From the NCBI RefSeq assembly GCF_017306585.1, contig NZ_JAFKIC010000112.1:18016-82015 (forward strand): DNA of 64,000 nucleotides, given 5' to 3'. The position numbers and the translations under genes are program-made. Shown here piece after piece: positions 5,211 through 51,718 of the stretch (positions are counted from its first letter, which is position 1; each line of letters opens with the position of its first letter). The stretch comes from Mesorhizobium sp. (GTDB lineage: Bacteria > Pseudomonadota > Alphaproteobacteria > Rhizobiales > Rhizobiaceae). The notes under the pieces are model-generated. The model did not search any database. It saw nothing but the letters and a program-made list of their open reading frames with translations, and was not told the DNA's origin.

Positions 5211-5672
5211 ATGAACCGTAACCGGCTGCTCAATGCAGAACTGTCGCACGCCATCGCTTCGATGGGCCATGGCGACCTGATGATCGTCTGCGACGCGGGC
5301 TTTCCGATCCCGTCCAGCGCCTGGCGCATCGACCTCGCCATCTCGCCCGACGTGCCGGACCTTGAAACGGTGCTGGCACCGATCGCGGAGAACCTGATCG
5401 CCGAGCGCGTCGGCTATGCCGACACGCTGCCCGTGCACAATGCGCCGCTGCTGGAGAAACTGAAGCGGCTCTTCCCCGACGCCGATTTCGAGACCGTCAC
5501 GCATGAGGCGATCCTCGGCGAGATGGCGAAGAAGGCCAAGGTCATCGTGCGCACCGGCGCCTTCGACCCCTGGGGCAACATCCTGCTCTATTCCGGCGTC
5601 GACGTGCCGGCATGGTTCTCCAAGCCCGGCGTCGTCGCGCCCGATTACTACGCCAAGAAGTTGAAGGGCTGA
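5211..5672 (+). CDS. rbsD: D-ribose pyranase (RbsD/FucU family)
   Basis: The protein has 153 residues. The N-terminus LLNAELSHAIASMGHGDLMIVCDAGFPIP is the RbsD/FucU signature, with the catalytic His in MGHGD and Asp in CDAG. The C-terminal VRTGAFDPWGNILLYSGV also fits the family. RbsD interconverts pyranose and furanose forms of ribose so that ribokinase can use the sugar; its place after a ribokinase-type gene fits. A GGGAAGGAAGAAAG leader precedes the ATG. FucU (fucose mutarotase) is a close relative, so the exact sugar remains uncertain. Confidence 0.88.
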   Translation: MNRNRLLNAELSHAIASMGHGDLMIVCDAGFPIPSSAWRIDLAISPDVPDLETVLAPIAENLIAERVGYADTLPVHNAPLLEKLKRLFPDADFETVTHEAILGEMAKKAKVIVRTGAFDPWGNILLYSGVDVPAWFSKPGVVAPDYYAKKLKG

Positions 5673-5673
5673 G

Positions 5674-6513
5674 ATGCCGCGCATCTTCGACTTCGGCGGC
5701 CGCGAGGTCGAGCGCACGGTAACGGTCGCCGGCCTGCGCGCGCTGAAAGGCAGCGGCCGGCACATGGCGCAGGTGACGGCCGAGACCGCGGACGAGGCAG
5801 CGGCGGCTGAAGCCGCCGGCATCGAGATGGTGGTCTGCCGCGCCGCCAACGTGGCTGCTGTGCGCCAGGGCTCACGCCGCGTCTTCGTCACCGCCGCGCT
5901 CGGCTTCGCCGACGCGGTGACGCCGGACGAGGTGCTGCGCACCGCCTTTTCAGCCATCACCACGGGCGCCGACGCCGTCATCACCGGGCGCGGCCATGAC
6001 ACGGTGCGCATGCTCGCCAACGAGCAGATCCCGGTGATGGGTCACCTCGGCTTCGTGCCGCGCAAATCCACCTGGGTCGGCGGCATCCGCGCCGTGGGCA
6101 AGACCGCCGACGAAGCGCTGGAGCTGTTCGACCGGTTTCGGCGGCTGGAGGATGCCGGCGCCTTCGCCGTCGAATGCGAGATCATCGCCGCCGAGGTGAT
6201 GGAAGAAATCAACCGCCGCACCGGACTGGTCACCGTCTCGCTCGGCTCCGGCCCGGCGGCGGACGTGATGTTCCTGTTCACCTCGGACATTTCGGGCGAA
6301 AGCGCGCGCCTGCCCCGCCACGCCCGCGCCTGGGGCGACCTCGCCAAACTCCACAAGGCAGTCCGCGACGCGCGTGTCGAGGCGCTGACGGGATTCCGCC
6401 AGGCGGTGGCTGGTGGGAGCTTTCCGACGGAGGCCGAGATGGCCGGCATCGCGCAAGCCGAACTAGAGGATTTTCGCGCGCGGCTTGCGGCGGATCTCAT
6501 ACGCAAATCCTAG
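5674..6513 (+). CDS. PanB-like (ketopantoate hydroxymethyltransferase fold) protein, probably not PanB
   Basis: The start codon follows the rbsD stop by one base, so the genes are probably translationally coupled. The 279 residues align by eye with 3-methyl-2-oxobutanoate hydroxymethyltransferase: IPVMGHLGFVPRKSTWVGGIRAVGKTADEA, LEDAGAFAVECEII and LGSGPAADVMFLF mirror the PanB segments GIPVMGHIGLTPQ, LEEAGAFALVLE and IGIGAG. The Mg-binding Asp of GDS reads CRAAN here, the second metal Asp is replaced in TAALGFA, and the KLEG Lys/Glu pair is missing (VITGRG). Only the late Glu in VECE persists. The reaction is therefore likely different, perhaps an aldolase or isomerase step on a sugar-derived acid (inference). 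Confidence 0.75.
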   Translation: MPRIFDFGGREVERTVTVAGLRALKGSGRHMAQVTAETADEAAAAEAAGIEMVVCRAANVAAVRQGSRRVFVTAALGFADAVTPDEVLRTAFSAITTGADAVITGRGHDTVRMLANEQIPVMGHLGFVPRKSTWVGGIRAVGKTADEALELFDRFRRLEDAGAFAVECEIIAAEVMEEINRRTGLVTVSLGSGPAADVMFLFTSDISGESARLPRHARAWGDLAKLHKAVRDARVEALTGFRQAVAGGSFPTEAEMAGIAQAELEDFRARLAADLIRKS

Positions 6514-6642
6514 AGATTGGCCGCAACCGGGAAACGGTGCCCGACAGCAAGCGCCTCATTCCTTCGCCCCCCTCTGTCCTGCCGACGCCTGACGATTGGC
6601 CCCATCCGCACAGCTCTCCTGCGGAGCCCGCCTGCGCTCCAT

Positions 6643-7551
6643 CTAGGACATCAGCGGCATCGGCACCTTCAGCCCTTCGATCAGCGCGTCGCGAAACAGC
6701 GCGATGGGGCGGCTCAGGCGTCCGGCGGGTGGGCGGTGCAGCAGCCATGAGCGCACTTGCGGCTTGAAGTCCGGGCAGTCGATGATCTCGACCGCATCCC
6801 GCCAGCGGCTGTCGGCGAAGGCGCCCGGCGTGACGATGCCGATGCCATGGCCGCGCGCCACCAGCGACATTCTGAGATCGACGCTGAGCGCCTCCACACC
6901 GACCTGGAACGGCAGCCTGGCCGCCTCCAGACTCTGCCTGATATAGGCGCGAAAACCGCAACCGTTTTCGTTCATCACCCAGGCGAAGCGGGACAGGTCG
7001 GCAAGGCTCGCCGGTTTCGGCACGCCAAGGCCTGGGGACGCCACCAGCAGCACCGGCTGCAGACCGAGATCGTCGCCAGCAAGCTCATCCGGCGGCGCGA
7101 GGCCTTCGGCGAGGCACACAGCCACCGCGTCGAGCTCGCTGCGCGCCACCTGTTCCACCAGCCTCGGCGACCAGCCCGAGGTGACGCGCAACGTCAGTTG
7201 CGGAAACGTTTCGCGCAGGCTGTCGAAAGGCAGTGCAAGTGCTGCATCCGAGAGGTAGGGCATGACGCCGAGTCGGAACTCGCCCCTGACCTCCCCTCGC
7301 GGCGAGACGCCGGCCTTCAGATCCTCCAGCGAGCGCAGCACGCGCCGGCCATGCTCATAGGCCTCACGCCCCGAAGCCGTCGGCTTCAGCGGCTTGGACT
7401 GGCGGTCCAGAAGCGCCGTCGCCAGCCCGTCCTCGAGATTCTGGATGCGGCGCGTGACACCTGGCTGGGTCAGGTTGAGCCTTGCCGAGGCGCCGACGAT
7501 CGAGCCGGTCTCGACCACGGCGATGAAGGCTTCGAGATCATGGATTTTCAT
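6643..7551 (-). CDS. LysR-family transcriptional regulator
   Basis: This 302-residue protein has an N-terminal LysR winged helix-turn-helix, with MKIHDLEAFIAVVETGSIVGASARLNLTQPGVTRRIQNLE at residues 1-40 and a C-terminal effector-binding domain. It is divergent from the MFS transporter gene, with 76 AT-rich bases between the starts, the classic layout for a LysR regulator controlling its neighbour and itself. The effector cannot be read from sequence. A cysteine in NENGCGFRAYIRQ lies in the effector-domain region. Confidence 0.93.
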   Translation of the reverse strand: MKIHDLEAFIAVVETGSIVGASARLNLTQPGVTRRIQNLEDGLATALLDRQSKPLKPTASGREAYEHGRRVLRSLEDLKAGVSPRGEVRGEFRLGVMPYLSDAALALPFDSLRETFPQLTLRVTSGWSPRLVEQVARSELDAVAVCLAEGLAPPDELAGDDLGLQPVLLVASPGLGVPKPASLADLSRFAWVMNENGCGFRAYIRQSLEAARLPFQVGVEALSVDLRMSLVARGHGIGIVTPGAFADSRWRDAVEIIDCPDFKPQVRSWLLHRPPAGRLSRPIALFRDALIEGLKVPMPLMS

Positions 7552-43450: not shown

Positions 43451-43983
43451 GCCGCTTCTACGAGGCCGGGCCGCTCGCCAGGGTCGGGATCAACCTGTTC
43501 TACGGCTATGGCTATAATTTCTACCGCCAGGAGAACCAGCTGCGGGCCGACGACCAGCGCGTGCGCCAGATGGCGTGCTCGCTGCTCGGCCGGGCGCGGA
43601 CCGGCCTCGACGAGGCCGAGGCGAGCTACCGCCGCGAGAACATCGCCCCGCCCACCCGCGCCAACCCTTTCCCGGACGCCGCGATCGTCGCCAACGCCCA
43701 GGCGCTCGAACGCCTGGGCCGCGAGGTCGGCGCGCTGGAAGGCCAGATCCGCCACCAGCCGGTGCCGGAAAACGACCGCATGGCCCAGCGGTATCGGCAG
43801 GAAGCCGCCACCCTCGCCGCTTTGGCGGAGAAGGACGCGGTGCTGGTCGGCCAGGCGGAGCTTCTGCGCTCGATGCTGGAAGGCGTGGCGGCGGATACAA
43901 TCCTTGCGGGCAAACGCGAGATCGAAGAGGGAGTTGTGGCGATCACGGCGACGTTGCGGGAGCGGCAGACGTTCTTGCTGTGA
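43447..43983 (+). CDS. Hypothetical coiled-coil partner of the SPFH protein
   Basis: The ATG overlaps the stop of the SPFH gene (ATGA), so the two are translated together. The 178-residue product begins MSRFYEAGPLARVGINLFYGYGYNFYRQENQLRADDQRVR, then is mostly helical and charged (such as LERLGREVGALEGQIRH). I know no domain. Its last 41 codons have a decayed second copy at 45830-45954. Probable accessory factor of the SPFH assembly (inference). Confidence 0.7.
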   Translation: MSRFYEAGPLARVGINLFYGYGYNFYRQENQLRADDQRVRQMACSLLGRARTGLDEAEASYRRENIAPPTRANPFPDAAIVANAQALERLGREVGALEGQIRHQPVPENDRMAQRYRQEAATLAALAEKDAVLVGQAELLRSMLEGVAADTILAGKREIEEGVVAITATLRERQTFLL

Positions 43984-44043
43984 GGGACCGGCGAACGGAC
44001 CGCGGAAATTGCAGCTGCCGGATGATCAGCGCGCAATGCCCGT

Positions 44044-44696: not shown

Positions 44697-44819
44697 CTCA
44701 GAAGAACTGATAACAAAGTCTGCCGCGATGTCCGGGGCGCGATCGACCTGACCTGAGATCAAGGTGCGGTTCGGCTCTCATGCGCGGCGGCCGTTTGACG
44801 ATCCACTGGAAATGACTTG

Positions 44820-45812
44820 ATGCACGATCGACCCCCTGTTGCTGAAAGATCGGTTTCTGAAACATTGGCCACCGAAACCCTGCCCTATCTGACATCGACG
44901 CTTCTCGACCGGCTGGAGATCTCCACGAAGGACATGGTCGACGAGATCGAGCGCCAGATATCGGGCCAGCGCCGGGGCGAAGTCTGGTGCGCGCCCAAGG
45001 CCGTGGTGCTGCCGGGCGACGACCGCTACATCATGGCGACGCTCGGCGTGTCTTCAGAGCCGCCGGTGCTCGCCACCAAGTCGCTGGTCGTCAACCCCGG
45101 CAATGCCCAGCGCGGCCTGCCGACGCTGAATTCGCTGATCACCCTGCTCGACGCCGAGACCGGCCTGCCGCTCGCCCTGGTCGACGGCAACTGGGTGACG
45201 GAGAAGCGCACGGCGGCCTTGAGCGCCGTCGCCGCCCGGCGCATGGCGCGGCCCGACGCCTCCTCCCTCGCCTTCATCGGCTGCGGGGTGCAAGCGCGTG
45301 GACATTTAGAGGCCTTCGCCGACCTCTTCCCCTTGCGCGAAATCCGCGCCTACGGCCGGGGCGCCGCCAACCGCGACGCCCTATGCGACATGGCGCGAGC
45401 GCGCGGCCTCGAAGCGATCCCCTGCGAGGAGCCGAGGCAAGCGCTCGAAGGCGCCGACATGGTGGTGACATCGGTGACCCTGGTGCCCAGACCCACCCCC
45501 TTCCTCGACGCCACCTGGCTGAAACCAGGCAGCTTCGCCGTGATGACCGACCAGGCCCTGCCCTGGCTGCCCGAAACCATGACCCGCTTCGACCGCATCA
45601 TCGTGGATGATCTGGAGCAGGAGAAAAACATGGCCAAGCCGATGATCGACCCCGCCATGGCCGCCGGCGATTTGACGGGGCTGGTATGCGGGGATTTTGC
45701 GGGAAGGCAAAGCGCGCAGGAGACGACGGCGTTCGTGTTCCGGGGGCTGGCTGTGGGGGACTTGGCGGTGGCGGGGTTGGTGTATGGGAGGACGAAGGGG
45801 GTTGGGGTGTAG
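44820..45812 (+). CDS. Ornithine cyclodeaminase/mu-crystallin family enzyme
   Basis: The 330-residue protein has the family NAD(P)-binding segment SSLAFIGCGVQARGHLEAFADLFPLREIRAYGR in the middle and VDGNWVTEKRTAALSAVAARRMARP just before it, which includes the substrate-binding Lys and Arg. It resembles ornithine cyclodeaminase, ketimine reductase and alanine dehydrogenase members; the exact reaction is open. I placed the start at ATG 44820 (GGAAATGACTTG upstream). A decayed gene fragment follows directly. Confidence 0.88.
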   Translation: MHDRPPVAERSVSETLATETLPYLTSTLLDRLEISTKDMVDEIERQISGQRRGEVWCAPKAVVLPGDDRYIMATLGVSSEPPVLATKSLVVNPGNAQRGLPTLNSLITLLDAETGLPLALVDGNWVTEKRTAALSAVAARRMARPDASSLAFIGCGVQARGHLEAFADLFPLREIRAYGRGAANRDALCDMARARGLEAIPCEEPRQALEGADMVVTSVTLVPRPTPFLDATWLKPGSFAVMTDQALPWLPETMTRFDRIIVDDLEQEKNMAKPMIDPAMAAGDLTGLVCGDFAGRQSAQETTAFVFRGLAVGDLAVAGLVYGRTKGVGV

Positions 45813-45829
45813 GCAAGGTCGGGAAGGGG

Positions 45830-45954
45830 GAACTGCTGCGCTCGATGCAGGAAGACGCCGTGATGCGATCCTGGCCGGCAAGCGCGAGATCGAGGCGGGG
45901 ATTGGCGCGATCACGGCGGCGACGTTGCGGGAGAGGCAGACGTTTTTTGTGTGA
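45830..45954 (+). pseudogene. Remnant of a second copy of the coiled-coil gene 3' end
   Basis: This 125-bp stretch aligns with the last 126 bp of the gene ending at 43983. Its end translates as DAILAGKREIEAGIGAIT and ATLRERQTFFV, against DTILAGKREIEEGVVAIT and ATLRERQTFLL in the intact gene. A deletion near 45851-45858 breaks the frame, and no start or ribosome binding site is present. It lies 17 bp after the ornithine cyclodeaminase stop. The differences show an old copy. Confidence 0.85.
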
Positions 45955-46058
45955 GGAATTGCGGCTATACGCCTTCAGTTCGCCGCTGGTATGCTCTTGC
46001 TGCGCTCTTCATCGTCGCGCCGTCGCTTGGCGTTCGTAAAGTGAACCCGCACTGGCTG

Positions 46059-46724
46059 TTAATCTAGCTTTAGCCGCTCCCATTCGGCGATTGTTGAAAT
46101 GTAATTTTCCCAAAACACCATCCCTTCATCTCCCTTCAATGGAGTTGTTTGCGGTGAGAAAAAATTTCGCCGAAGGATGTCGATGACGCGCATGTCATTT
46201 GGATCGTATTCGGTCAAGGCTTGCTGCATGGCCCACAATCCTAACCTACCACCTTCTTCGGGGAGTGCGGGGGCTTCGCTGAAATAGGGGTAGACGACAC
46301 GTGTATACTCACCTCTAACTCGAGCATGCAGGGCATCACGTATACGAACGACACCCCTTATAGCTCCAAATTCTAGATTTCCATGCACGCTCATTGGCAC
46401 TATTTGAACAGGTTCGTTTGACCAGCGTAGCTTGGCGCTAAGCAAGTCGATTACTCCGTCTTTCAGGAGTGGGTATAGTCGCGCAAAATTCCTGTTTGAT
46501 CGTATGCGGCCGTCCGTCATCTCGGAAAGGTCGCCGTCACCGGCAATATGCGTTTTTACATCGGACCAAAAAGGTAGATAGAAGTCGCCGCCGCGGCTTC
46601 TGCTGCCACCTTTTTCCTTTCTACGATCGAGCCGAATATCATCCCTTAAAATTGAACGTCGCAGCGGCTGCGGCGCATAAAATAATTGCAGGATTTTGCG
46701 CAGCGGGATGTCTAGAACTGACAT
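46059..46724 (-). CDS. Hypothetical protein, first gene of the low-GC island
   Basis: The 221-residue protein begins MSVLDIPLRKILQLFYAPQPLRRSILRDDIR, is rich in Arg and has no signal peptide, membrane helix or motif that I recognise. It ends with a Trp-containing segment (FWENYISTIAEWERLKLD). A GGGGG run lies just upstream of the ATG. Base composition and codon use are visibly more AT-rich than in the flanking genes. It is divergent from the kinase-PurZ-like gene (202-bp spacer), so the two may share regulation. Role unknown. Confidence 0.65.
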   Translation of the reverse strand: MSVLDIPLRKILQLFYAPQPLRRSILRDDIRLDRRKEKGGSRSRGGDFYLPFWSDVKTHIAGDGDLSEMTDGRIRSNRNFARLYPLLKDGVIDLLSAKLRWSNEPVQIVPMSVHGNLEFGAIRGVVRIRDALHARVRGEYTRVVYPYFSEAPALPEEGGRLGLWAMQQALTEYDPNDMRVIDILRRNFFSPQTTPLKGDEGMVFWENYISTIAEWERLKLD

Positions 46725-46926
46725 ACGTACCCCCCTTTTATAAGCCCGAAAATGGCTTTCCCGCCACTTTCATGTCTAGACAGTAAAACGTCAACATGAC
46801 ACGTTCTGAGTCAGCCGAGTCTTTTGCGAGCCTCAATTGATGACAAGTTACAATCGCGATATTTTTTTGCTATTTATTCCTATCTGAGGGACGATTTAGC
46901 TACGCGAATTTGGGGGGTTGATATTT
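46725..46926. promoter_or_regulatory. Divergent promoter region of the accessory island
   Basis: This AT-rich 202-bp spacer lies between two divergent genes. A sigma70-like pair pointing right is TTGATG at 46837-46842 and TATTTT at 46860-46865, 17 bases apart and about 61 bp before the ATG at 46927. Both boxes have four of six consensus bases, so it is only a candidate. Confidence 0.4.
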
Positions 46927-48525
46927 ATGCGTGTGCTATTGGCATTGTCCGGGCCGGTTGGCGTCGGGAAGTCAAGATTTTGCGAGATTATCACAGAACG
47001 CTTTGGGGCTGATTGCCTCTCGACACGCGATCTTCTAATCGCCACTGGGGCCAAGAGCGAGCGGGAGGACCTCCAAGCAGCCGGCGAACGCTTGGATTTG
47101 GAAACCGACGGCAAATGGGTGGCTGACGCACTGGCGACCCGCCTTTCGGATGACGGTCCCTGCGTCAGCATCATCGACGCGATTCGCATCAAGAAACAGA
47201 TCGACCATATCAGGCGGACTTTCGGTGATCGATTCCGTGTCTGGCACGTGTTCATAGATGCGTCCGACGCGGTTCTTGAGGAACGCTACGCTAAACGCCA
47301 AAAGAAGATTGCAGAATTTGCCACCTATGCAGAACTCAAAACGAGTTCGACAGAGGCGCGTATTCGTCTTCTTAAAGGGGTGGCGGATCGCGTAGTCGAC
47401 TCATCTCGTTGCGAAGCAGCCTCGGTCGTGGCGCAGGCGGTGGCGGGCCTAGGTCTCTACCCCCTTCAGCCTGAGCCGCTCGTGGACGTGGTGGTTGGTG
47501 GCCAATACGGCAGCGAAGGCAAAGGGCATGTGTGCGCATATCTCGCGCGTGGCTATGAACTGCTCATTCGAGTTGGTGGCCCCAACGCCGGTCACAAAGT
47601 TAAACATCCTGAGTACACATACGTTCAGCTGCCTTCTGGCAGCCAATCCAATCCGAACGCCGGCATACTGATAGGCGCGGGTGCCACGATTTCCCTGCCT
47701 GTAATTACCAAGGAAATCAAAGACCTCAAGCTTGACCCGAATCGACTATCAATCGACCAGCGGGCGGTAATTATTGAGCCGAGCGACGTCGAGTACGAAG
47801 AGCGATCGATGGACGCGATCGGCTCTACCAAAAAGGGAGTTGGCGTTGCCACGGCGCGTAAGATTCTCGGGCGCGACAAGGAAACGCATCTCGGTGCAAA
47901 GGTGCGTCTTGCACGCGACATTCCCGAGCTCAAACGTTTCGTCGTTGATGGTAGTGAGGTGCTGGAGCGCGCCTATGCGAAGGGGAAACGTATTTGCCTT
48001 GAGGGAACGCAGGGCACTGACCTTAGCCTGCATCATGCGAATTATCCTTACGTTACTTCGAGAGAGACGACGGCGTCGGGATGTTTGGCCGACGCCGGCA
48101 TTGCGCCGGGCCGGGTCCGCCGAGTTATCATGGTGACTAGAACCTATCCGATAAGGGTGGGCGGGACGTCTGGCGATATGGCTCGTCCAATCGAAGCGCA
48201 GGTAATTGCGGATCGCTCAGGCCTCCCGGTCGACAAAATTCAAAAAACTGAGGTCGGAACGGTGTCTGGCAAGAAGCGTAGAATCGCTGAGTTCGACTGG
48301 GAGCAGGTCCGCCGCTCAGCAGTCATAAACGGGGCGACGGACATTGCGCTGTCTTTTTCGGACTACATCAGCGATGTGAACCAGCGAGCTAGGAGCTACG
48401 AGCAGCTCACGGTTGAGACACGCGACTTCATCGAGCGCGTTGAGCGGGTGGCCAACGCGCCCGTCTCGCTGGTCTCGACTCGCTTCGAAGCTCGGGGAAT
48501 CATTGATCGGAGAAATTGGAAATGA
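46927..48525 (+). CDS. P-loop kinase-like domain fused to PurZ-like adenylosuccinate synthetase
   Basis: The protein has 532 residues. Residues 1-180 look like a nucleoside/nucleotide kinase with Walker A GPVGVGKS at 9-16. Residues 186-532 are an adenylosuccinate synthetase domain of the short archaeal/phage size: VVVGGQYGSEGKGH at 188-201, VGGPNAGH ending in His223 (E. coli His41), EGTQGTDLSLHHANYPYVTS at 359-378, TRTYPIRVGGTSGD and TVSGKKRRIAEFDW. Ser196 replaces the catalytic Asp13 of PurA, a change I recall for phage PurZ, which uses dGMP instead of IMP. The stop overlaps the next start (ATGA). The gene has lower GC than its flanks and is not a likely housekeeping purA. Exact substrate and the kinase target are inference. 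Confidence 0.85.
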   Translation: MRVLLALSGPVGVGKSRFCEIITERFGADCLSTRDLLIATGAKSEREDLQAAGERLDLETDGKWVADALATRLSDDGPCVSIIDAIRIKKQIDHIRRTFGDRFRVWHVFIDASDAVLEERYAKRQKKIAEFATYAELKTSSTEARIRLLKGVADRVVDSSRCEAASVVAQAVAGLGLYPLQPEPLVDVVVGGQYGSEGKGHVCAYLARGYELLIRVGGPNAGHKVKHPEYTYVQLPSGSQSNPNAGILIGAGATISLPVITKEIKDLKLDPNRLSIDQRAVIIEPSDVEYEERSMDAIGSTKKGVGVATARKILGRDKETHLGAKVRLARDIPELKRFVVDGSEVLERAYAKGKRICLEGTQGTDLSLHHANYPYVTSRETTASGCLADAGIAPGRVRRVIMVTRTYPIRVGGTSGDMARPIEAQVIADRSGLPVDKIQKTEVGTVSGKKRRIAEFDWEQVRRSAVINGATDIALSFSDYISDVNQRARSYEQLTVETRDFIERVERVANAPVSLVSTRFEARGIIDRRNWK

Positions 48526-49208
48526 CGGTTGACGAACTCGTCGCCCTCCACCCCCGTCTTTGGCACATGGCTGCAGACGAAAGTTGGCCCTCAATTCAAC
48601 AATATGGACTTCTTAGCACATCGTCGCTGCTTAATCTCTATGGCTATAATGGGCCGGCGCGCTCGGCGATTGAGAGTATCAAACGTCCAGAATCGGTAAA
48701 GATCGAAGCTCCCGGACTGCCAGGGGCTATCGTTCGTGATCAGAAGCCGATGTCAGACAAGGCACTCAATAAGTGCCTTCAAGACGGACTGACACCAACC
48801 GAGTGGTATCAATCATTGAATGAGAAGGTGTTTTTCTGGTTGACCCGCTCTCGCCTCCAGACATTGCTTGGGGCCTACGCGCATACACCGCAGATTGTGC
48901 TGACACTCGATACTGCCACACTAGTGGAGGCACACGCCGAGAATATTCTGCTCTGCCCGATCAATAGTGGATCCACGATCATGAATCCCGCTCCGCGAGG
49001 GGCGAACTCATTTCTACCAATCGAAGATTTCCCGTTCGAAGCCTGGAGACTGAAACGCGGCAACAGGCGCAAGGCTGTCGTCGAGCTCGTGGTGGCAGGA
49101 GGCGTCTCAGATGCTGCGGAGCATGTACTTGCAGTCCACCGGGTCGCGGACGGGGTAGTGGCCGAGTTGTGGCGTCGGCCAGGTGACGTTGGAGACGTAG
49201 GGCCTTAG
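48522..49208 (+). CDS. DUF7002-family protein, possibly ADP-ribosyltransferase-like
   Basis: The 228-residue protein is coupled to the PurZ-like gene by an ATGA overlap and has a CGGAGAAATTGG leader. The opening LHPRLWHMAADESWPSIQQY then GLLSTSSLLNLYG is typical of DUF7002. It resembles the N-terminal H...W(P)SI...GL(L)S pattern of DarT/DUF4433 and RNA 2'-phosphotransferase folds, which use NAD. That similarity is by eye and weak. A VFFWLTRSRLQTLLGAY segment and a NPAPRG turn follow. It could modify nucleic acid, nucleotide or protein. It ends 10 nt from the convergent gene. Confidence 0.7.
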   Translation: MTVDELVALHPRLWHMAADESWPSIQQYGLLSTSSLLNLYGYNGPARSAIESIKRPESVKIEAPGLPGAIVRDQKPMSDKALNKCLQDGLTPTEWYQSLNEKVFFWLTRSRLQTLLGAYAHTPQIVLTLDTATLVEAHAENILLCPINSGSTIMNPAPRGANSFLPIEDFPFEAWRLKRGNRRKAVVELVVAGGVSDAAEHVLAVHRVADGVVAELWRRPGDVGDVGP

Positions 49209-49218
49209 TCTAGGGTCG

Positions 49219-50730
49219 TCAACTCACTACGATACGCGCTGGGCGCCCAGCCTTGCGGACAACATCTGCGATGTGACTAGTGAGGCCAACATTGCCTACC
49301 AGCTTTAGTCCAGTCGTCTCAGGCAAAGTGCGAAGCCTGAGCCTTAGCTTTTCGAGACCGTCGGCAACATCAAAGCGAACCCAGTCGTCCGGCTCACCCG
49401 GCACCAGGATTTTCGGTGTGCTGTGAGTCGCTCCGAGATGCAGTTGAACGATCCAGACCTTCTCGCCGTCGTGGACCCACTCGAATCGTACAGGCCCAAG
49501 TGCAGAACTGAGTCGATGATGGGCGGCCCGAACATCGGCCATGATCGGCGCGGGTAGTAGTTCTGGAGGGCTCACGCCAAGCATGAGCAGATCGCCTTCG
49601 CCTTCCCGCCCCTCGATAACAAGAGTGGCGTCTCTCGCTACGATCGCCGCACCTGAAAATTTTGCAGGCACGGCAGCTTGGCACAGTACTGATGAAATAG
49701 CGCCGCCGCTGGGATCCTCTTGCGCGAGTAGTGAGAATGGATCAGTCCATCCTTTAACCGTTGTATAAAGCCCTGGCTCGGGTTCATGAGGGCAAGTGCG
49801 AGTCCATATTTCCTTGCTGTTGGTAGGTGAGCCAAATGTGAATGGCGAGACGCGTCTTGGTATAACGGTAGTTCTTGGCGTTGGGAGGCCAATAGTGTGC
49901 GACATCAACAAGCCAAATGCCTTGTCGCCGATATGACGGCTGAAATTGTTAGGCCAAGTCAGCCCGGGTCGGTGGTTTTCGAGGCCGATGGCTTCGTGCT
50001 CCCAGAGCAATGTATGCGTCTGACGCCACCCGCGAGGTTTAGGATGGACACTGAACTCAAGCCGGACGCCATCTGTAGAGCCAAGATCGGGCCTGAAGCC
50101 ATAGACAGTTTCAAGGATCGACATCCCCCAGGCGATTGGCAACGAGGCGACACCGTCCTTTTCGACGCAGCGCGGTGTGTCGTCAGGGGCGAACTCAATG
50201 ACGCCACCCTGAGCAACGCCAGAGACGCCTCCGTCGCGTACATCTACAGTTTCGTTGGCGATTACGAACAACCCGCTTTCCAGCAAGCGATGGAGCGCAC
50301 TAACCGCTTCTTCCAGATTCTTGATGCCGTAGACGAACTCGCGGCTACGCGGGTCGCTGGGGCTGAAACTGCGAAGGTTAATCGATCCGTCGGGGCTGAG
50401 GCGAAGTAAGGTCTCTAGCGCCATCCGCTCGGAAAGAAATGGGTCGTTAGGAGTGTGTCCTGCAACGCGGCTAAATTCTTGACGCCCTCGTCCATCCTCA
50501 GGAGAGAAGCTAACAAACTGAGCGACATTGCCAGTCTCTGCCAAGCGGTCTAGCGAACGATCCTTGCGAATTGGGCTATTGCTGCCGACAACGTCTAACG
50601 ACGATGTTGGCCTGCTAGCTACTGGGAGGCAAGATTGCATTTCATAAGCCTTAGGCTCGATTGTGATATTGTCAGTGTTAATCGATCGAGGATGCAACCT
50701 ACGCAACTCGCGCTGACCGGGTGCCGGCAC
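49219..50730 (-). CDS. ATP-grasp protein resembling the PEP synthase/PPDK N-terminal domain
   Basis: The product is up to 503 residues. The C-terminal part, FEWVHDGEKVWIVQLHLG after AAHHRLSSALGP, resembles the end of the PEP/pyruvate-binding ATP-grasp domain (IEWA-DGxxLWILQ). A Gly-rich loop VRDGGVSGVAQGG lies earlier. The swivelling His domain and PEP-binding barrel of true PEP synthase are absent. Start choice is uncertain: GTG at 50730 overlaps the HD gene by 32 bases, and ATG at 50640 is an alternative; neither has a strong ribosome binding site. It is downstream of the HD phosphohydrolase gene on the same strand. Function unknown; ATP-dependent phosphotransfer is inferred. Confidence 0.65.
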   Translation of the reverse strand: MPAPGQRELRRLHPRSINTDNITIEPKAYEMQSCLPVASRPTSSLDVVGSNSPIRKDRSLDRLAETGNVAQFVSFSPEDGRGRQEFSRVAGHTPNDPFLSERMALETLLRLSPDGSINLRSFSPSDPRSREFVYGIKNLEEAVSALHRLLESGLFVIANETVDVRDGGVSGVAQGGVIEFAPDDTPRCVEKDGVASLPIAWGMSILETVYGFRPDLGSTDGVRLEFSVHPKPRGWRQTHTLLWEHEAIGLENHRPGLTWPNNFSRHIGDKAFGLLMSHTIGLPTPRTTVIPRRVSPFTFGSPTNSKEIWTRTCPHEPEPGLYTTVKGWTDPFSLLAQEDPSGGAISSVLCQAAVPAKFSGAAIVARDATLVIEGREGEGDLLMLGVSPPELLPAPIMADVRAAHHRLSSALGPVRFEWVHDGEKVWIVQLHLGATHSTPKILVPGEPDDWVRFDVADGLEKLRLRLRTLPETTGLKLVGNVGLTSHIADVVRKAGRPARIVVS

Positions 50731-51280
50731 TATGTCCGGATCTGGGTCGCAACTCGTTAAAGCGCTTCAGGAATGCAGCGCGCGCCGTTCCAGGTGATAG
50801 ATGTCGCACCGTTACCGGGGCAGGAACGATCCCTTCTTCTGCCGCCCACAGCGACGTCTCCGGCGGCATGATCTGCGCTTGTTCTGCCGCCAGTACACTC
50901 AGGTCTGCTCGCTTGATCTCTTTTGGCAAGGGCGTTGGCACATCGAAACGCTGGAATATTGCAGCTTCCACCATAGCCTCGATCTGCTTAAAATCCGGCA
51001 GAAGTTGCTTGAGGGGCCTAGTCACATCGCCAATAAAAGCTTCGGCAGCATCGTGCATAAGCGCGCTATACTCATAGCCGTGAGCTACTTCGCTAACTAA
51101 CAAGCTATGCTCAGCAACTGAATAAAATGCTGAACACTGACCTGCGTAGCGGCAAATGTGCGACAGTCCATAAGCGATATCCTCAATGACAAATTCGCTA
51201 TTCGCCGGATCAAGAAAATCAAACCATGCACCACTGTGAAGCATCATCCTTGGGCCAACGGCGAAGTTTACAGCGATCAT
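50699..51280 (-). CDS. HD-domain phosphohydrolase (YfbR/DatZ-like)
   Basis: The 193-residue protein is counted from the ATG at 51280, preceded by a strong CCGGAGGTACTAGG site. Metal-site residues are visible: His58 in VAEHSLLV, His76-Asp77 in LMHDAAE with Glu80, and Asp126 in KRADLSVLAAE. Arg44 in HICRYAG matches the YfbR substrate residue. YfbR cleaves deoxynucleoside monophosphates; phage DatZ of the same superfamily removes dATP. Together with the PurZ-like gene it points to dNTP-pool remodelling (inference). It is the first gene of a two-gene leftward unit with the ATP-grasp gene. Confidence 0.82.
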   Translation of the reverse strand: MIAVNFAVGPRMMLHSGAWFDFLDPANSEFVIEDIAYGLSHICRYAGQCSAFYSVAEHSLLVSEVAHGYEYSALMHDAAEAFIGDVTRPLKQLLPDFKQIEAMVEAAIFQRFDVPTPLPKEIKRADLSVLAAEQAQIMPPETSLWAAEEGIVPAPVTVRHLSPGTARAAFLKRFNELRPRSGHSAGTRSARVA

Positions 51281-51472
51281 CCTAGTACCTCCGGATAGCT
51301 GCAGATATCCAAACATCGAACTACGGCCCTTGCGCAAGGCTTGAAATAGGTTCTCCACCCCTCGTGCACAAATTGCTAGTGCGACGGACCCCTTAAGAGG
51401 TGCTTCACCCACTTCTGGCCTGACCCTGAGCCTACGGCCGATATCTGAGCACAGATTATCGCGCCGCCCCCC

Positions 51473-51718
51473 TCATCCCCCCGCCAGCCTCGGCAGCAAA
51501 AACACCTCCGCCCCCTCCGGCAGCTTCTTCCCCCACGTATCCCGGTAAATCACCCCATCGATCGCCACGGCAATGCCGCGATCAATCCACGGCTCGAACC
51601 CGGGATACTGTTCAGCCAGTTTCCTGAACAGCTCCCTGATATCTTTCGCCTCGACCTCGACCTTGCTCTTGCCCCCGGCAAGCTGGCTGAGCGCGCCCCA
51701 GAGCGTGACCTCCACCAT
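51473..51718 (-). CDS. ThiS/MoaD-like sulfur carrier protein
   Basis: The 81-residue protein has the MoaD/ThiS beta-grasp fold pattern, with VTLWGALSQLAGGKSKVEVEAKD at the start and the essential C-terminal Gly-Gly (RLAGG) needed for thiocarboxylation. It lies 168 bp after the molybdenum hydroxylase large-subunit gene on the same strand. It may supply sulfur for molybdopterin or for the terminal sulfido ligand of that enzyme. An E1-like partner is not in the window. Confidence 0.8.
   Translation of the reverse strand: MVEVTLWGALSQLAGGKSKVEVEAKDIRELFRKLAEQYPGFEPWIDRGIAVAIDGVIYRDTWGKKLPEGAEVFLLPRLAGG

Follow-up and report, generated by a model that had tools for sequence, protein, structure and literature searches.

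A kinase-PurZ fusion beside a DUF7002 protein in a Mesorhizobium hotspot: a candidate anti-phage module

Positions 46059-51280 of a 64,000-nucleotide stretch of Mesorhizobium sp. DNA (assembly GCF_017306585.1, contig NZ_JAFKIC010000112.1, positions 18,016 to 82,015 of the forward strand; hereafter the window) hold an island of five genes, of which four (46927-51280) are a conserved set: a fusion of a nucleoside monophosphate (NMP) kinase with a PurZ-type synthetase, a DUF7002 protein, a phosphoenolpyruvate (PEP)-synthase-like protein (PEPS) and an HD phosphohydrolase. Judged by its sequences, this set looks like an undescribed anti-phage system, as far as the open PubMed Central (PMC) literature goes. 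All five open reading frames listed in the initial annotation are present and open in the window sequence. The features of the locus are given below, where L-numbers denote the loci compared and G-numbers the genomes of relatives.

46927..48525, plus strand: NMP-kinase-PurZ fusion, 532 amino acids (Pfam, NCBIfam and PHROG matches, PurZ signature, tree, kinase motifs)
48516..49208, plus strand: DUF7002 protein, 230 amino acids, likely DarT-like ADP-ribosyltransferase (Pfam PF22531, 1.4e-69; structural model; Foldseek)
49219..50730, minus strand: PEPS, 503 amino acids (motif alignment; found in 18 of 18 class A loci)
50699..51280, minus strand: HD phosphohydrolase of the YfbR / deoxynucleoside monophosphate (dNMP) 5'-phosphatase type, 193 amino acids (phrog_318, 5.6e-66; Pfam PF12917, 5.7e-6; alignment)
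46059..46724, minus strand: orphan protein, 221 amino acids, separate hotspot cargo (absent from kin loci, found without the fusion in relatives)
45817..45956, plus strand: left edge, decayed fragment with 78% identity to 43845-43985
44817..45812, plus strand: left hotspot flank, ornithine cyclodeaminase/mu-crystallin-type gene (PF02423, 1.7e-50; syntenic in L101, L103 and L106)
51473..51718, minus strand: right hotspot flank, MoaD-like gene of a molybdenum hydroxylase operon (named by reading)

Gene set and recurrence

The fusion gene, whose likely start is the ATG at 46927, encodes an adenylate-kinase-like domain (about residues 1-178; Pfam AAA_17, 8.6e-8) followed by a PurZ-type aminodeoxyadenylosuccinate synthetase domain (about residues 183-532; Adenylsucc_synt, 2e-53), and shares 10 overlapping bases with the DUF7002 gene. 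On the opposite strand, the HD gene, with a likely ATG start at 51280, where the initial annotation let the island end, and GGAGGT before it, overlaps the PEPS gene; the start of the latter is uncertain, since its initial 54 or so residues are not conserved. The lower G+C content and foreign codon use pointed out in the initial annotation are evident: G+C amounts to 54.6% across 46059-51280 and to 65.9% in the rest of the window, no other 5.2-kb stretch being lower at a sampling step of 500 bases, while G+C at third codon positions is 0.48-0.61 in the island genes, compared with 0.85-0.91 for two genes measured in the flanks.

A search with the fusion protein retrieved 13 loci in genome contigs. 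Among 150 related genomes, 10 (the window's own included) carry a match, six of them fused and four with a stand-alone PurZ; eight plasmid records cover at least 80% of the fusion protein, and the fusion occurs in 5 of 385 alphaproteobacterial genomes, again counting the window's own. None of the 218 phage records with a fusion match covers 80% of the fusion protein, and a single scan of viral contigs, which reaches close kin only, yielded L040 alone, a locus with a class B set (see below) adjoining type I restriction genes (by reading) and nearly identical to L012. With repeats removed, the fused loci number 29; they were tabulated by means of profile hidden Markov models (HMMs), for which some of these loci had themselves supplied the sequences. 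One of these, L053, was first found by a DUF7002 search and later recovered by the fusion search; smaller stretches of loci already included (L002, L003, L017-L022, L033-L036, L129-L132) are not among the 29.

The DUF7002 gene adjoins the fusion in 28 of the 29 loci, and in all 28 with both the DUF7002 profile match starts within 16 bases of the fusion stop. Two classes can be distinguished by the remaining genes. Class A, to which the window belongs, has PEPS and the HD enzyme and no M78-macrodomain protein (18 of 29 loci); the recurrence in other genomes that the initial annotation had proposed to look for is found for four of its five genes. Class B has the M78-macrodomain protein and neither PEPS nor HD enzyme in the available DNA (9 of 29). 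Two loci are unclassed, namely L016, which begins at the fusion and falls on the class B side of the tree described below, and L032. In L032 (7872-10827), the fusion is accompanied by an extra 183-residue kinase and by an unclassified 239-residue protein with no profile match, DarT-like by eye only (it starts with 'YHIT' and has 'EILVP'). Moreover, the PurZ domain of L135 matches only in part, and the class A locus L063 carries a separate M78 peptidase gene nearby.

Enzyme types of the encoded proteins

The PurA-like half of the fusion belongs with the PurZ group, an assignment that is well supported as an enzyme type and makes dGMP its predicted substrate. According to PMC12884076, with 298 prokaryotic sequences sampled, the PurZ group holds 147 phage rows, in which the position of the PurA catalytic residue Asp13 is Ser, and four archaeal rows, in which it is either Ser or Gly; PMC8342488 places this Ser of S-2L PurZ next to the 2-amino group of dGMP and a conserved Val next to C2'. 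In our alignment of 41 rows, Ser replaces Asp13 in all 23 fused, all five stand-alone bacterial and all eight phage rows, and Asp13 is kept in all five PurA-type rows. The fused domains were located by a pattern containing this Ser, which also picked L053; misses would have been printed, and none was. L063, L064, L133-L135 and L040 lie outside the alignment. Bacterial and phage PurZ rows also have in common the loop PIRV[G/A]..xSG, as opposed to TRVG..xG in PurA-type rows. The two groups also differ, less sharply, in GST or SST versus GTT: L053 has ATT and the PurA-type row L045 has GST.

The midpoint-rooted tree of these rows separates PurA from the PurZ group with support of 100/100. Within the latter, the fused rows form one clade (100/99), with the 15 class A rows in one subclade (99/98) and the seven class B rows, L016 included, in another (99/97), and the stand-alone bacterial rows form a second clade (100/99). 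Support is lower for the union of the fused rows with phage PurZ (87/83) and of the stand-alone rows with PurZ0 (93/88), neither of which is firm; the tree program warned of long branches. The PurZ-like character proposed by the initial annotation is therefore upheld by both the Ser and the grouping with phage PurZ and PurZ0, and the grouping with housekeeping PurA that it had asked about does not appear in the tree. A housekeeping identity was rejected on these grounds and because the window's genome (7.09 Mb) has one full-length PurA elsewhere. Also set aside as kin was the cluster at 7989-14926 of L045, on a Rhizobium leguminosarum plasmid, whose PurA-like protein keeps Asp13 and groups with PurA; with its PurB, FolE, QueC/QueE and IMP dehydrogenase genes, this cluster looks like one for deazapurine nucleoside synthesis.

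The kinase half of the fusion has motifs that we take to resemble those of adenylate kinases, and the Walker A Gly and Lys, DxxRxxxQ and RxxxR are invariant in 16 of 16 rows. A PDB search gave a weak match to adenylate kinase 1 (best adenylate kinase chain, 0.0027). The same kinase domain stands in a separate gene beside PurZ in L029 and L030, in the former fused to RNase_H_2 (Pfam), and the pairing of a monophosphate kinase with PurZ is thus a repeated theme.

As for the HD protein, which the initial annotation had called YfbR/DatZ-like, the first half of the name stands and the second does not: its nearest relatives are phage dNMP 5'-phosphatases (phrog_318), with the dATP triphosphohydrolase family phrog_7076 far behind (7.1e-7), and a true DatZ was accordingly rejected. 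The motif H..HDxxE..D is intact in the seven class A rows aligned. The pairing of PurZ with an HD phosphohydrolase, on which the initial annotation laid weight, holds in class A and in three of the five stand-alone PurZ loci.

These stand-alone loci have a DCD-like gene in five of five cases (by an HMM built from four of the five; above the Pfam cut-off in one of three proteins tested), an HD gene in three and a kinase in two. In L027 (6961-15877), L028 and L044 (7296-10057), PurZ is accompanied by an HD-like enzyme and by a DCD-like protein, and the kinase is missing; L029 (6205-10053) and L030 (5943-9941) have PurZ, an NMP-kinase-domain protein and a DCD-like gene. In L027, the HD-like and DCD-like genes are followed by an MmeI-type restriction enzyme (Pfam), a helicase and a T5orf172/MUG113-domain protein. 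Since stand-alone PurZ pairs with DCD-like, HD and kinase genes, deoxynucleotide chemistry is supported as the common thread.

It could be argued that PurZ, kinase and HD enzyme place 2-aminoadenine in the DNA of the plasmid or island itself, as Z phages do, as a DNA modification or against restriction, with the ADP-ribosyltransferase as an add-on. The PurZ-HD pairing does resemble phage clusters, the gene after purZ in phage VP5 being annotated as yfbR-like, and PurZ stands beside the MmeI-type enzyme of L027 and, by likeness, in L028. Against this, neither MazZ nor a Z-type DNA polymerase nor a close DatZ is present in the window's island, the only locus searched for them; the DUF7002 protein accompanies the fusion in 28 of 29 loci; and expression of the phage genes datZ, mazZ and purZ is toxic to Escherichia coli, as PMC8342488 reports. 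We consider this explanation improbable.

The DUF7002 protein is probably a DarT-like ADP-ribosyltransferase (ART), judging by its predicted fold. The initial annotation had its family name right and missed this likely nature. Its AlphaFold model (pLDDT 84.7, pTM 0.84) has as top Foldseek match E. coli DarT1 with NAD+ (8baq; E 5e-5, probability 1.00), followed by other ART toxins, DarTG structures and pierisin. Residues H17, R74-D75, F106-F107, N150 and E190 are invariant in 13 of 13 rows (L016 was left out of this alignment) and match in order, by which alone they were compared and not by superposition, H17, R52/D54, M71-F72, N104 and E152 of DarT1 (PMC11543638). The same source places H17, F18, R52, D54, N104 and E152 in the DarT1 site, and describes DarT1 as toxic and as adding ADP-ribose to guanine N2 in single-stranded DNA. 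Among 398 sampled genomes, six have a DUF7002 match: five above the cut-off, of which three stand beside the fusion and two are distant stand-alone paralogues, and a weak sixth in a gene that a DarT profile also matches. The two paralogues (L050, 8258-8899; L051, 8523-9164) have a partly shared chromosomal setting and no PurZ.

The class B partner combines a peptidase with a macrodomain. Peptidase_M78 is above the cut-off in the three proteins tested, and Macro is above it in one and weaker in another; the L010 protein matches a solved macrodomain (8.6e-20) and IrrE (1.9e-4), and both proteins tested match CapP (8.4e-15) and DarG profiles. At a threshold of 1e-10, the protein is found in nine of nine class B loci and in none of the 18 class A loci. 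In view of these M78, Macro, CapP and DarG matches, class B reads as a DarTG-like pair with a kinase-PurZ added. In the window's five proteins, the only ones searched for both domains, Pfam has neither Macro nor NADAR.

The main rival to an anti-phage module that alters nucleotides builds on this likeness. In a toxin-antitoxin arrangement, the ART would be the toxin and its kinase-PurZ partner would sense surges of dGMP or another dNMP from phage DNA breakdown, the altered nucleotide being a signal or by-product. Toxin-antitoxin gene pairs are often directly adjacent, and the fusion lies directly upstream of the ART gene in all 28 loci that have both; in addition, the class B macrodomain is of the DarTG antitoxin type. 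However, the catalytic motifs of kinase, PurZ and class A HD enzyme are kept in the aligned rows, beyond the needs of a binding role, and PurZ occurs with kinase, HD or DCD-like genes in five of five stand-alone loci that have no DUF7002. We hold this rival to be rather unlikely, while giving it more weight than any other alternative.

PEPS, finally, is likely a dikinase-type phosphotransferase, by motif only. All 18 rows retain TSH-x-AD and VR[FI]EWV.DG..W.VQLH; by eye, the protein has an ATP-grasp-like end and an invariant TSH-x-AD-x-x-RK motif, as in phospho-histidine domains, and a GDK..GL...G...P block, the ATP-grasp-like end and the TSH motif presumably follow one another in the order of PEP synthase and pyruvate phosphate dikinase (PPDK). 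An hhalign comparison of PEPS with the genome's own PPDK aligns the PEPS C-terminus at the TSH motif, with a probability of 1.1, where three shuffles gave 0.1-0.2.

Hotspot and defence neighbourhood

The island fills a chromosomal hotspot of varied cargo. Ten related sites were taken and the cargo listed for five (L101, L102, L103, L104 and L106). In L101, L103 and L106, other low-G+C cargo lies between the ornithine-cyclodeaminase-type gene and the MoaD-like gene: a set with an AAA_17 kinase in L101; HsdM, an HsdS-like gene (by reading) and an AAA_21 protein in L103; a 1555-residue protein with a weak AAA_16 match in L106. L102 carries a 1224-residue P-loop-like protein (by reading) and L104 a DNA methylase together with a weak AAA protein; in the available DNA of both, the left flank gene is missing. 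At the MoaD end, the similarity of all 11 loci compared to the window begins at 51461-51475, and L007 has a class A set at the same right edge, with a fusion about 56% identical to that of the window.

The decayed gene fragment noticed in the initial annotation at the left edge is real, the copy that it matches (43845-43985) being the end of a similar open frame. This gene 3' end of about 140 bp recurs near the hotspot, multiple times in some relatives (for example G039), and is perhaps a footprint of cargo exchange.

The fifth gene, which the initial annotation had counted into the island, does not belong to the set. The orphan protein has only a sub-threshold Pfam match (0.016), is not found in the 13 kin loci of the fusion search, and is encoded in six of the 150 related genomes, five of which lack the fusion, the exception being the window's own; in G023, a homologue occupies this hotspot with other genes as neighbours. 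Being absent from the kin loci and present without the fusion in five relatives, it is best regarded as separate hotspot cargo. In L136 (2954-5273), at the same hotspot, a homologue is divergent from a two-gene set (290 and 161 residues, the shorter protein membrane-like by eye), and together they are possibly another small system.

Other copies of the set frequently have defence genes around them, a setting for which the initial annotation had proposed a check. Six of the eight full-length plasmid copies are annotated, and PADLOC, run on seven neighbours chosen from four records, found matches around four of these six: GajA/GajB (L042), GajA (L048), SIR2/HerA (L043) and RdrA/RdrB (L041, partial). 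In other words, Gabija, SIR2-HerA and RADAR-like genes stand beside several plasmid copies; the neighbours of L047 and L049 were outside the PADLOC run. Six 35-kb control stretches of the same plasmids (189 features, read by annotation only) contain one AbiEii, one NT-HEPN, three toxin-antitoxin genes and one AAA ATPase. Among chromosomal copies, L012, L040 and L134 are near type I restriction genes (by reading), L014 is near a type IIG-like enzyme, L008 near ThiF-family and weakly NACHT-like proteins, and L031 near conjugation-type genes (by likeness to L015 genes and reading). Some copies, for example L047, have no obvious defence neighbour. In L063, on a plasmid of Sinorhizobium meliloti BL225C, two genes near the class A set, at 757-1908 and 5326-6816, encode a protein with a caspase domain (Pfam) and one resembling the L007 metallophosphoesterase (by reading).

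This setting also bears on a role in ordinary metabolism, in which the genes would be a horizontally gained purine salvage pathway and the PurA paralogue would make adenylosuccinate. The best NCBIfam model for the domain is indeed an adenylosuccinate synthetase, and annotators of the plasmid copies use the same name. The replacement of the catalytic Asp by Ser in 23 of 23 fused rows, the PurA that the genome already has, the patchy spread (5 of 385 alphaproteobacterial genomes) and the setting in a hotspot and in defence islands all speak against salvage, which we regard as very improbable.

Possible mechanism and relation to known systems

The defence context and the enzyme types are well supported. 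On the predicted activities, the four genes may be a mobile anti-phage module that combines alteration of guanine deoxynucleotides with ADP-ribosylation of nucleic acid bases and so stops phage replication, a reading to which we give an even chance. Its proposed core is one protein pair, the NMP-kinase-PurZ fusion and the DUF7002 ART. The initial annotation had proposed that the island makes or removes an altered purine deoxynucleotide, for defence or DNA modification: the PurZ kind of enzyme, the HD pairing, the recurrence and the defence setting agree with this in part, and the probable ART shifts the likely mechanism from nucleotide alteration alone to alteration plus ADP-ribosylation.

Computation establishes the gene set and its joint conservation, the hotspot and its defence neighbours, the PurZ signature, the ART-like fold as a prediction and the intactness of the catalytic motifs; the substrates, the trigger, the order of the steps, the toxic protein, any phage resistance and the role of PEPS are inferred. 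The PurZ domain would join aspartate to dGMP, giving a precursor of 2-aminoadenine, and the fused kinase would phosphorylate either this PurZ product or what a lyase makes of it, up to the diphosphate, while the HD enzyme would remove competing dNMPs. The ART would then use NAD+ to ADP-ribosylate purine bases, probably guanine and possibly 2-aminoadenine, by which phage replication would be halted. In class B, the macrodomain may reverse the ART mark and the IrrE/CapP-type peptidase may govern expression; in class A, the PEPS phosphotransferase and the HD enzyme would replace them. Because both the phage Z genes and DarT1 are toxic, either half, nucleotide alteration or ART, could arrest the cell. 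A bolder version, which we think doubtful at best, is an immune system that uses the phage Z-DNA trick as a weapon: during infection kinase-PurZ would turn dGMP into 2-aminopurine deoxynucleotides, and the DarT1-like ART would tag the 2-amino group common to guanine and 2-aminoadenine, leaving replicating phage DNA that is altered or contains guanine unreplicable. To our knowledge, no known defence system makes a Z-type nucleotide.

Several observations weigh against such a module. The TM-scores between the DUF7002 model and DarT1 are modest (0.42/0.46), and DUF7002 has no sequence-profile match in PDB and no PADLOC match, the DarT profiles of PADLOC not detecting it. The NCBIfam PurZ model gives 202.9 bits, below its cut-off of 300, for which reason the fusion domain is filed as a sister within the PurZ group and not as phage PurZ; the archaeal-type PurA model PRK04293 scores higher (277 bits), also below cut-off. 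The two stand-alone HD-like proteins aligned, those of L027 and L044, have HE where HD is expected. PEPS has no match in Pfam or PDB profile searches, and its AlphaFold model is poor (pLDDT 52.7). Furthermore, class A is without the class B macrodomain protein that could tame the ART, the plasmid controls come from annotation only, and the neighbourhood is an association with defence genes, not a function.

If true, the proposal would add a nucleotide-altering branch to ART-based immunity, give DUF7002 a function, suggest PurZ exchange between hosts and phages, and offer a ready enzyme fusion for the production of 2-aminoadenine nucleotides. PurZ enzymes are known from phages; the PurZ-type clade described here is bacterial, occurs on chromosomes and plasmids and within defence islands, and combines a fused nucleotide kinase with an adjoining toxin that likely tags DNA. 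In the open PMC literature, neither a description of the gene set, nor a paper on DUF7002, nor one linking adenylosuccinate synthetase to a defense island was found; preprints and most subscription papers are not searchable there, and 'undescribed' is limited accordingly. The papers found there for PurZ are mostly on phages, and those found for ART and conflict include work on DarTG, NAD-ADPr and CmdTAC. In the accessible part of the text of PMC9503650, 'PurA', 'adenylosuccinate' and 'AdSS' do not occur.

Among known systems, DarTG and DarT-NADAR resemble the set in its likely ART of DarT-like predicted fold, its macrodomain partner (in class B) and its place among defence genes. They differ in that PADLOC DarT profiles miss DUF7002 and class A lacks the macrodomain protein, and kinase-PurZ, HD enzyme and PEPS are not parts of DarTG; since none of 18 class A loci matches the macrodomain protein of class B, we do not assign the system of the window to DarTG. 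Class B partners resemble CapP/CapH and IrrE/ImmA peptidase modules through their M78 domain with its CapP match, but the domain is fused to a macrodomain and is not in the window's class A set. PEPS has, by eye, the motif block, ATP-grasp-like end and TSH motif of PEP synthase, PPDK and rifampin phosphotransferase in order; unlike them, it has no profile match, no space for a PEP/pyruvate barrel beyond TSH, and an N-terminal part unlike anything found. With the PurZ and PurZ0 of phages phiVC8, S-2L, SH-Ab 15497 and Wayne, the fusion has in common the Ser for Asp13, the PIRV..xSG loop, the same side of the 100/100 split and an HD phosphohydrolase nearby. It differs from them in that DatZ, MazZ and DpoZ of the phage Z-genome cluster are not among the five proteins of the window's island, where they were looked for, and in that the bacterial set sits on chromosomes and plasmids, with its NMP kinase fused and an ART linked to it.

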